From assembly GCF_000307775.2 (NCBI RefSeq), contig NZ_KK020676.1:2628341-2692340 (forward strand): a DNA stretch of 64,000 nt, given 5' to 3'. Below are positions 88 to 26,558 of this stretch, one piece after another. Source of the DNA: Stutzerimonas stutzeri KOS6. Its GTDB lineage: Bacteria > Pseudomonadota > Gammaproteobacteria > Pseudomonadales > Pseudomonadaceae. The position numbers were made by a program, and so were the translations under genes. The notes beneath the pieces were generated by a model that was given only the letters and a program-made list of their open reading frames with translations, was not told the DNA's origin and made no database searches. Position 1 is the stretch's first letter. Each line of letters opens with the position of its first letter.

Positions 88-534
88 TCAACCCTCCAGC
101 GCGGGTCGCTGGTCGGCATTGATCGGGATGCGCCTGGGCCTGGCCTCTTCCGGCACGACGCGCACCAGGTCGATATTGAGCAGGCCACTGCTCAGCGCAG
201 CGGCTTTCACCTCGATGTGGTCGGCCAGCCGGAACGACAGCTTGAACGCCCGCTGAGCGATGCCCTGATGCAGATAGGTGATGTTCTCGGCCTCGCTTTC
301 GCGGCGACCGCCACTGATGGTCAACACACTTCGCTCCACCTGCAGATCGAGGTCGGACTCCTCGAAGCCTGCGGCTGCAACCACGATGCGATACTGGTCG
401 TCACCGTGTTTCTCGATGTTATAGGGTGGATACGAACTGCCGGTGTCGTTGCGCAGGGCGGACTCGAACAGGTCATTGAAACGATCGAAGCCCACGGATT
501 GCCGGAACAGAGGGGCCATGGGGAACGAACTCAT
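88..534 (-). CDS. ibpA: Small heat-shock protein, Hsp20/IbpA type
   Basis: 148-residue ATP-independent holdase that binds unfolding proteins in the cytoplasm. The N-terminus (MSSFPMAPLFRQSVGFDRF) is the hydrophobic arm typical of IbpA. The alpha-crystallin domain spans roughly residues 36-130, with the usual VVAAAGFEESDLDLQVE and LTISG strands. The C-terminal tail carries the IxI motif (RRIPIN) used for oligomer assembly. The start at 534 was chosen because AGGAGG lies seven bases upstream and the domain begins as expected; the longer reading to 588 adds unconserved residues. It is transcribed alone, ending at the hairpin at 52-73. Family assignment is firm; the choice between ibpA and another hsp20 paralogue is by resemblance. 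Confidence 0.93.
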   Translation of the reverse strand: MSSFPMAPLFRQSVGFDRFNDLFESALRNDTGSSYPPYNIEKHGDDQYRIVVAAAGFEESDLDLQVERSVLTISGGRRESEAENITYLHQGIAQRAFKLSFRLADHIEVKAAALSSGLLNIDLVRVVPEEARPRRIPINADQRPALEG

Positions 535-600
535 GATAAAACCTCCTGAAATCAGCGAGTTGAAACAGACGGGACCCGAGTTCAGCATCCCGCTGAGCCC
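535..600 (-). promoter_or_regulatory. Possible ROSE-like RNA thermometer in the hsp20 leader
   Basis: Read on the minus strand, the leader directly before the start contains TCGCTGATTTCAGGAGG (542-558). A UYGCU element followed closely by the Shine-Dalgarno is the hallmark of ROSE thermometers, which sequester the ribosome site of ibpA-type mRNAs at low temperature. The longer upstream helices were not modelled. Confidence 0.45.
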
Positions 601-22893: not shown

Positions 22894-22989
22894 GCGGATG
22901 TACTGTGGCACAGTCGGCATGGCTAAAAAATGCTCAGCTCTGTATACTCGCGCGCCTTTTTAATGCGCGGTTTTCGAGGTTCAAAGTCG

Positions 22990-24312
22990 ATGAGCAAAAC
23001 GCCAACAGTCGGGTTCGTCAGCCTGGGTTGCCCCAAGGCAACGGTCGACTCTGAACGCATCCTTACCCAGCTGCGCATGGAGGGCTACCAGATCGTGCCG
23101 TCCTATGAGGATGCCGATGTGGTGGTGGTCAACACCTGCGGCTTCATCGACAGCGCCAAGGCCGAGTCGCTGGACGCCATCGGTGAGGCGATCGCCGAGA
23201 ACGGCAAGGTGATCGTCACCGGCTGCATGGGCGTGGACGAGAACAACATCCGCGGCGTGCACCCCAGCGTGCTGGCGGTCACCGGCCCACAGCAGTACGA
23301 GCAGGTGGTCAACGCAGTGCATGAAGTGGTGCCGCCGAACATCGAGCACGACCCCTTCGTCGACCTGGTGCCACCGCAGGGCATCAAGCTCACCCCGCGC
23401 CACTACGCGTACCTGAAGATTTCCGAAGGCTGCAACCACAGCTGCAGCTTCTGCATCATTCCGTCCATGCGCGGCAAGCTGGTCAGTCGTCCGGTCGGCG
23501 ATGTGCTCAGCGAAGCCGAGCGCCTGGTCAAGGCCGGCGTCAAGGAAGTCCTGGTGATCAGCCAGGACACCAGCGCCTATGGCGTCGACCTCAAGTACAA
23601 GCTGGATTTCTGGAACGGCCAGCCGGTCAAGACGCGCATGCTCGAGCTGTGCGAGGAGCTGGGCAGGATGGGCGTCTGGGTGCGCCTGCACTACGTCTAC
23701 CCCTACCCCAACGTCGACGACGTGATCCCGCTGATGGCCGCCGGCAAGATCCTGCCGTACCTGGACATCCCCTTCCAGCACGCCAGCCCGAAGGTGCTCA
23801 AGGCCATGAAGCGCCCGGCCTTCGAAGACAAGACCCTCGCGCGCATCAGGAAGTGGCGCGAGATCTGCCCCGAGCTGACCATTCGCTCGACCTTCATCGT
23901 CGGCTTCCCCGGCGAGACCGAAGAGGACTTCCAGTACCTGCTCGACTGGCTGACCGAAGCCCAGCTCGACCGCGTCGGCTGCTTCCAGTACTCACCGGTG
24001 GACGGCGCACCGGCCGAGGTGATGGGCCTGGAGCCGGTGCCTGACGAGATCAAGCAGGATCGCTGGGACCGCTTCATGGCGCACCAGCAGGCCATCAGCG
24101 CCGCGCGATTGCAGCTTAAGGTCGGTCGCGAGATGGAAGTGCTCATCGACGAAGTGGACGAAGACGGCGCCATCGGCCGCTCCTGGGCCGATGCCCCGGA
24201 GATCGACGGCATGGTTTACATCGACAGCGAACAGCCGCTGCAGCCGGGCGACAAGGTCCGCGTGCGCGTCACCCACGCCGACGAGTACGACCTCTGGGCC
24301 GAAGTGATCTGA
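22990..24312 (+). CDS. rimO: Ribosomal protein S12 (Asp89) methylthiotransferase RimO
   Basis: 440-residue radical-SAM enzyme adding a methylthio group to Asp of ribosomal protein S12. An UPF0004 N-terminal domain ([17 protein letters not shown], with cluster-binding cysteines) is followed by the radical-SAM motif CNHSCSFC (Cys148, 152, 155) and a TRAM domain at the end. [12 protein letters not shown] separates it from MiaB. ATG 22990 is chosen as the conserved start. A -10 like TATACT stands at 22943, with a poor -35, and a GC-rich inverted repeat (GCGCGC ... GCGCGG) lies between it and the gene. Confidence 0.96.
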
Positions 24313-24550: not shown

Positions 24551-25660
24551 ATGAAAGCCATGTCCTCCGACCCTCGCTTCAGCGCCATGCCCGACGTCAA
24601 CGGATACTTCGGCCCCTATGGCGGCCAGCTGGTGCCGCCGCACCTCAAGCAGGCCATGGACGAGATCAATCTCGCCTACGAGGAAATCCGCCAGCGCGAA
24701 GACTTCCGGCAGGAGCTGGCGTCGCTGTTCGCCGACTATGTGGGGCGGCCAAGCCCGATCTTCCATGCGCGGCGTCTGTCCGAGCAGCTCGGCGGTGCGC
24801 AGATTCATCTGAAGCGCGAAGACCTGAACCACACCGGCGCGCACAAGATCAATCACTGCCTGGGCGAGGCGTTGCTGGCCAAGTTCATGGGCAAGAAGAA
24901 GGTGATCGCCGAAACCGGTGCCGGGCAGCACGGTGTCGCCCTGGCTACCGCCTGCGCGCTGGTGGGTATTCCCTGCGAGATTCACATGGGCCAGGTGGAC
25001 ATCGAGAAGGAGCATCCCAACGTCACCAAGATGAAGATCCTCGGCTGCAAGCTGGTAGCGGTCACCCGCGGCGCCGCAACGCTCAAGGAAGCGGTGGATA
25101 GCGCCTTCGAGGAATACCTGGAGGACCCGCACAACTACATCTACGCGATCGGCTCGGTGGTCGGCCCGCATCCGTTCCCGAAAATGGTCCGCGATTTCCA
25201 GTCGATCATCGGTAACGAGGCCCGTGAGCAATTTCTCTCCAAGCACGGTCGCCTGCCCGATCATGTGGTCGCCTGCGTCGGCGGCGGCTCCAATGCCATG
25301 GGCATGTTCACCGCCTTTCTGGAGGATGCCGCGGTCGAGCTCGTCGGTATCGAGCCGGCGGGCGAAAGCCTGGACAAGCCAGGCCGCCACTCGGCCACGC
25401 TGTCCAAGGGCAAACCCGGCGAGTTGCACGGCATGGCCTGCTATGTGCTGGAGGATGCCGAGGGCAACCCGTCCGCGGTGCACTCCATCGCCTCCGGCCT
25501 GGATTACCCCGGTGTCGGTCCGCAGCACAGTTATCTCAAGGACATCGGCCGGGTGAACTACCAGACTGCGACCGACCAGGAATGCCTCGACGCCTTCATG
25601 ACCCTGTCGCGCGTGGAAGGCATCATCCCGGCGCTGGAAAGCGCGCATGCCGTGGCCTGA
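24551..25660 (+). CDS. trpB: Stand-alone tryptophan synthase beta chain, truncated by an in-frame TGA
   Basis: 369 residues, TrpB-type PLP enzyme (indole + serine to tryptophan). Visible are [23 protein letters not shown] with Schiff-base Lys99, ETGAGQHG and the phosphate-binding GGGSNAMG. The family normally continues past [12 protein letters not shown] to an NLSGRGDKD ending. Here TGA at 25658 stops translation, but the same frame continues for 35 more codons containing that ending, up to TAA 25766. The lost segment holds the serine that contacts the PLP ring nitrogen (Ser377 in Salmonella), so the product is probably inactive unless the TGA is read through. No trpA is adjacent, unlike the usual trpBA pair, so a second complete trpB elsewhere is likely. 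A sequencing error is not excluded. Confidence 0.88.
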
Positions 25661-25768
25661 GCGATCCGCACGGCGCCGATGCTGGGCAAGGACAGGCATA
25701 TCCTCGTCAACCTTTCCGGCCGCGGCGACAAGGACGCCGACTACGTGGCCAACCTGCTCGGCCTGTAA
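25658..25768 (+). pseudogene. Detached C-terminal segment of trpB after the in-frame stop
   Basis: Reading on in the trpB frame, codons 371-405 give [20 protein letters not shown] and [15 protein letters not shown] before TAA. This is the conserved TrpB C-terminus, with no frameshift or base loss. One substitution (TGG, CGA or similar to TGA) explains the break. Confidence 0.85.
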
Positions 25769-25850: not shown

Positions 25851-26558
25851 ATGGATCACAGCGTCTCACCCGTAGGTTTCGTCCGCTCCTGCTTCAAGGA
25901 AAAGTTCGCCATCCCGCGCCAGCCCAGCCTGGCACCTGCCGCGCGGGGCGTGCTCGAGCTGCTGCCGCCGTTCGACAACGGCGAGGCCGTGGCCGGGCTC
26001 GAGCAGGTCAGCCACGTATGGCTGCTGTTCCTCTTCCATCAGACGCTGGAGAACGCTCCACGGCTCAAGGTGCGGCCGCCACGCCTGGGCGGCAATCGGA
26101 TGGTCGGCGTGTTCGCCACCCGCGCGACGCACAGGCCGAACGGCATCGGCCAGTCGGTGGTCAGGCTGGACCGGGTCGAGCCTGGTCGGCTGTTCATCTC
26201 CGGCATCGATCTGCTGGACGGCACGCCGGTGCTGGACATCAAACCCTATGTGCCCTACGCCGATGCGCTGCCGGATGCGCGCAACACCATGGCCGCCGAC
26301 GCGCCGCGGCCGATCGAGGTGCAGTGGTCGGAAGCCGGGTTGCTGCAGGCCCGCCGCGAGGCGCAGCGTCTCGGCCAGCCGCTGCTGGAACTCATTGAAC
26401 AGTGCCTGGCGCAGGACCCGCGCCCGGCCTACCAGAAACCCGAGCCGGAACGGCGCTACGGCGTCCAGTTCTGGGATGTGGACGTGCGCTGGCACTACCC
26501 GACAGCGGGTGTGATCCGCGTGCTCGAAGTAGCCCCGGCGGCGCCGCATCCGGCGTGA
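25851..26558 (+). CDS. trmO: tRNA N6-threonylcarbamoyladenosine methyltransferase TrmO (TsaA family)
   Basis: 235 residues. The TsaA/YaeB beta-barrel starts SVSPVGFVRSCFKEKFAIPRQP; GNRMVGVFATRATHRPNGIGQSVVRL and DLLDGTPVLDIKPYVPYAD are the SAM-binding and core motifs. The enzyme methylates the N6 of t6A37 in threonine tRNAs reading ACY codons. The C-terminal YGVQFWDVDVRWHY segment is also conserved. ATG 25851 gives the usual length. Its stop is 18 bases from the convergent acylase stop. Confidence 0.93.
   Translation: MDHSVSPVGFVRSCFKEKFAIPRQPSLAPAARGVLELLPPFDNGEAVAGLEQVSHVWLLFLFHQTLENAPRLKVRPPRLGGNRMVGVFATRATHRPNGIGQSVVRLDRVEPGRLFISGIDLLDGTPVLDIKPYVPYADALPDARNTMAADAPRPIEVQWSEAGLLQARREAQRLGQPLLELIEQCLAQDPRPAYQKPEPERRYGVQFWDVDVRWHYPTAGVIRVLEVAPAAPHPA

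Follow-up and report, generated by a model that had tools for sequence, protein, structure and literature searches.

Whether the stand-alone trpB gene of Stutzerimonas stutzeri KOS6 still specifies a working enzyme is the question raised by an in-frame TGA at positions 25658–25660 of the 64,000-base stretch analyzed here, which we call the window. The open part of this TrpB1-type paralogue (24560–25660, forward strand, as are all features of the locus described below) comprises 366 codons plus the TGA, which is codon 367 of 402, and the frame continues behind it through the conserved TrpB C-terminus (25661–25768), composed of 35 codons that include the NLSGRGDKD sequence and closed by the TAA at 25766–25768. 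The NCBIfam trpB model TIGR00263 matches the body with 498.8 bits, above the curated cut-off of 392.45 that marks TrpB1 membership, and the tail with an E-value of 2.1e-05. Because a TrpB tail with its own family match continues in the same frame, we regard the divided frame as no chance arrangement. These observations agree with the original prediction, which had described an interrupted gene with an intact ending and no further indel or decay; when the frame is read through the TGA and aligned to orthologues, the alignment spans all 402 codons and contains one stop only. The gene extent, previously given from 24551, has been revised. Since the initial M of all 27 copies in the genus aligns with ATG 24560, the start is most likely 24560 and the gene 24560–25768, and translation probably does not begin at the in-frame ATG of 24551.

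Ordinary termination at the TGA yields a product without the conserved active-site serine, the codon of which (TCC of Ser386, within NLSG; 25715–25717) lies behind the stop. From the end points of the alignment and the resulting offset, Ser386 corresponds to S371 of the Pyrococcus furiosus protein (1wdw) and to S377 of the Salmonella protein. It had been claimed that the lost segment holds the serine contacting the PLP ring nitrogen in Salmonella TrpB; the loss of the equivalent of S377, the residue that makes this contact, has been borne out by alignment. The pertinent study (PMC1854888) describes S371 of P. furiosus as an active-site residue under strict conservation. Judging from its sequence, the paralogue is a TrpB1 member by descent and, as read, presumably not a working enzyme.

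The paralogue lies between two open genes, rimO upstream (22930–24312; TIGR01125, 584.9 bits) and trmO, also called tsaA, downstream (25851–26558; TIGR00104, 156.2 bits). The presence of another trpB beside trpA, considered in the original prediction, has been found in KOS6, the genome in which this adjacency was examined: the other trpB lies at C2:913172 and is followed by trpA (TIGR00262, 265.9 bits against a cut-off of 102.35). A divergent frame of a LysR-type regulator, whose best NCBIfam match is below its cut-off and which we take to be trpI, is located upstream of this trpBA pair. The two trpB genes of KOS6 share 53% identity, and a trpB of the second type is present in all 56 genomes of the genus (partial in G004 and in two pieces in G068). 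The latter genome presents the reverse of the KOS6 case, because its other-type trpB (G068:C102:4848-6015) appears in two overlapping pieces, through a frameshift or a draft error, and its stand-alone paralogue is open.

When compared with known systems, the KOS6 arrangement resembles the one termed i1_o1, in which a non-operon trpB1 accompanies an operon copy (PMC1854888); the resemblance covers the TrpB1-type sequence, another trpB beside trpA and a stand-alone copy located away from trpA, whereas the KOS6 stand-alone copy differs in being 53% identical to the other copy and cut by a TGA. The same study gives a case of trpB inactivation where a further trpB is present, Geobacter sulfurreducens GSU2375; that trpB1 pseudogene, however, is operon-based, has a frameshift and coexists with trpB2, while in KOS6 the trpB1 concerned stands alone and is cut by a nonsense point change. 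An extra trpB outside the trp operon is also reminiscent of trpB2, but the paralogue scores 155.9 bits against the cut-off of 518.85 for TIGR01415 and is not a trpB2.

Comparison with relatives has clarified what the TGA replaces. At codon 367, all 97 of the 97 orthologue records with at least 81% identity read TGG (Trp) (two sets of 17 and 80 records, in both of which several species occur), and so do all 26 other copies of the genus, in each of which it is the sole Trp codon of the gene. The KOS6 codon thus differs from that of its relatives by a single G-to-A. At larger distances the residue changes: the corresponding codon is TAT in an orthologue with 76.5% identity (L026) and GAA in the 12 examined loci of the other trpB type, which are about 53% identical. 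Trp at codon 367 is clade-specific, which also sets the KOS6 copy apart from the i1_o1 arrangement. A nonsense pseudogene would combine a stop that stands at a sense codon of the orthologues and removes conserved sequence with a non-functional product; such a stop is present in KOS6, and the non-functional product is what it predicts.

The distribution of the paralogue bears on its dispensability. It occurs in 27 of the 56 genus genomes, being open in 26 and cut only in KOS6, and is missing from the other 29, one of which (G004) is a 71%-complete draft. In a set of 398 genomes of the family, itself a selection from a larger group, 59, including the 27 genus carriers, have the paralogue at E ≤1e-200, and 58 of these copies are open. 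In the class, 18 of 369 genomes have a match at E ≤1e-190, and besides KOS6 only one of them (G498, locus L241) carries a stop. This distant orthologue has an in-frame TAA at another codon, which suggests an independent inactivation, subject to the same reservation concerning sequencing errors. A trmO tree covering the 56 genomes (a single-gene tree with midpoint root and some weakly supported nodes) places all carriers in a single group of 30 members, three of which are non-carriers (G063, G022 and G005) on three separate branches amid the carriers. In G063 and G022 rimO adjoins trmO, and tblastn detected no trpB remnant between the two genes; in G005 the interval is occupied by other DNA. 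On this pattern of presence and absence, we consider the paralogue an accessory, dispensable gene, which has apparently been lost along three further branches within its clade.

We have also examined the neighborhood as a clue to function and set this approach aside, since the neighbors recur within genus-level groups and no orthologue common across the groups was seen. A betT-betB-betA choline cluster is located upstream of trpB in 9 of 80 loci (L038–L045 and L048), all with the rimO/trmO setting of the genus; the three families were tested for L038, and two of the three genes lie within the locus in L043. Searches of the window gave no betT, betB or betA match at E ≤1e-30, and it is rimO that adjoins trpB there. 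Halomonas-type loci also have GMC oxidoreductases close to trpB, but these share just 39–41% identity, and the two tested score under the betA cut-off. Among the titles listed in a literature search none treats this paralogue, and no paper with both "Stutzerimonas" and "trpB" was found.

The KOS6 gene has largely retained the signature of purifying selection. The dN/dS of the body is 0.028–0.055 against 22 near relatives, the median among those relatives being 0.031. The nearest relative is G062 (93.3% DNA identity), from whose tail that of KOS6 differs by 9 synonymous and 3 replacement changes, from which we infer that it has been constrained over most of the time since the split from G062. 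Besides the stop, KOS6 has six private amino-acid changes (codons 8, 13, 35, 188, 374 and 379). The ratio of private amino-acid to synonymous changes, 6:4 in KOS6 versus 26:93 when the 22 relatives are pooled (Fisher p 0.015), may give a weak hint of relaxed selection, although shared ancestry, branch length and saturation of synonymous sites confound the contrast.

Among the explanations other than inactivation, an error of base calling, polishing or assembly in a gene that is really intact ranks second; we regard it as unlikely, though far from negligible. An open and constrained gene showing no decay apart from the TGA fits such an error equally well, as does the occurrence of a stop in only 1 of the 27 genus copies, and modification-linked nanopore errors are reported (PMC10687267). 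Nevertheless, the assembly does not appear error-rich here, because in those parts of the window that could be compared, no other genuine gene of at least 150 codons was found interrupted. When the frames of four syntenic relatives were mapped onto the window and judged by eye (frames of at least 150 codons, in the parts having a counterpart; blastn coverage 38,037 to 49,818 bases per relative), trpB was interrupted against all four. The remaining stop flags were dismissed by eye, from coordinates and identity, as antisense or shadow frames or as lying 5' of shorter starts in other relatives. A candidate second broken gene near 512–679 proved to be the 5' region of an hsp20-type gene, named from the look of its protein, directly 5' of which is a ROSE_3 RNA thermometer (529–594, reverse strand, 59.8 bits). 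A Dcm-like error context was likewise rejected: at CCTGG sites shared by the four relatives the window differs at 18 of 84, with CCTGA at 3, and this divergence is within the range of other 5-mers (7/42 to 22/50), showing no excess.

The remaining explanations, recoding or a split gene, would keep the paralogue functional, for which together we see only a slim chance. The least improbable of these is a readthrough of UGA as Trp by tRNA-Trp, giving some full-length TrpB; we hold it to be very unlikely. It has in its favor that relatives have Trp at codon 367, the sole Trp codon, for which UGA is the near-cognate stop, and that UGA-reading tRNA-Trp variants exist in bacteria, as described in PMC13092985. 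But in the sole tRNA-Trp gene detected the anticodon is CCA, and inspection by eye shows A9, G24 and an anticodon stem of 5 bp. This gene therefore has neither a UCA anticodon nor the A9C, G24A or 4-bp-stem variants of that source; the search covered genes with one 14-base pattern, which a divergent suppressor tRNA would escape. Furthermore, no other copy examined has a stop at codon 367. Were readthrough real, enzyme output would be tied to charged tRNA-Trp. A naturally split TrpB, in which a 366-residue body ending at 25658 would associate with a 29-residue tail restarted at ATG 25679, is more doubtful again. This ATG (25679–25681, codon 374), 18 nt after the TGA, is absent from the 26 other genus copies, and the restarted piece would include NLSG; no Shine-Dalgarno-like sequence, however, was seen by eye before it, and the private change is unremarkable at a codon so variable (ACG, ACA, AGG, GCG or ACT in the 26 others). 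We know of no precedent for a TrpB split by such a restart. Selenocysteine appeared worth considering, because the genome has a tRNA-Sec (77.9 bits against a cut-off of 47) and two formate dehydrogenases with one in-frame TGA each, in which selenocysteine is very probably the reading of UGA. Its use in trpB is nevertheless the most improbable reading of all, and we have rejected it on two grounds, the pattern of conservation and a covariance model tested on independent Escherichia coli controls. In-frame TGA occurs in 68 of 68 formate dehydrogenase matches of the genus (E ≤1e-300; place of the TGA verified at 31 loci) versus 1 of 27 trpB copies, and relatives carry Trp, not Cys, at codon 367. 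One of these matches, G017:C24:502-3261, incomplete at a contig end, has two in-frame TGA codons against one in the 67 others. The covariance model of the selenocysteine element, built on six distinct elements (31 of 31 examined loci yielded one), recovers both E. coli controls, fdnG with 56.7 bits and fdhF with 23.2 bits, each hit beginning at the in-frame TGA, with noise up to 14.1 bits in that control search. Near the trpB TGA its best scores are at noise level (6.6 bits on the opposite strand; 5.8 bits with the start off the TGA), giving no sign of a SECIS-like element, and the UGA is neither conserved among orthologues nor matched by Cys. Folding energy was uninformative, as two true elements also gave z of −0.4 and 0.2, and no Rfam family was found around the paralogue at E ≤1. 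The readthrough-dependent enzyme offered as one option in the original prediction is thus not supported, given an ordinary look of the tRNA-Trp found, no stop at codon 367 in other copies and noise-level selenocysteine element scores.

The best reading, to which we assign a probability of about three in four, is that an accessory trpB has very recently become a pseudogene by a nonsense change. The same option in the original prediction is the best supported by the trpB beside trpA, by TGG elsewhere and by the absence of the gene from about half of the genus; its phrase "made redundant" goes further than these observations and is kept as a supposition. Of the two TrpB1-type genes in KOS6, one adjoins trpA and the other is the accessory, stand-alone copy between rimO and trmO; comparison shows that a single G-to-A difference has turned the only Trp codon of the latter into TGA. 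Translation would then stop 36 residues early with loss of the conserved active-site serine, the truncated product would be expected to be inactive, and tryptophan synthesis would presumably continue via the other TrpB with TrpA. The change is probably very recent, because constraint is still apparent over the remainder of the gene.

The recent knock-out of a dispensable gene, most likely what this premature stop represents, is an ordinary kind of event, and even where selenoproteins are very probably made, an in-frame TGA need not mean recoding. If real, the stop would offer a snapshot of the first step in the loss of an accessory trpB, and what it gives is mainly a correction of annotation.
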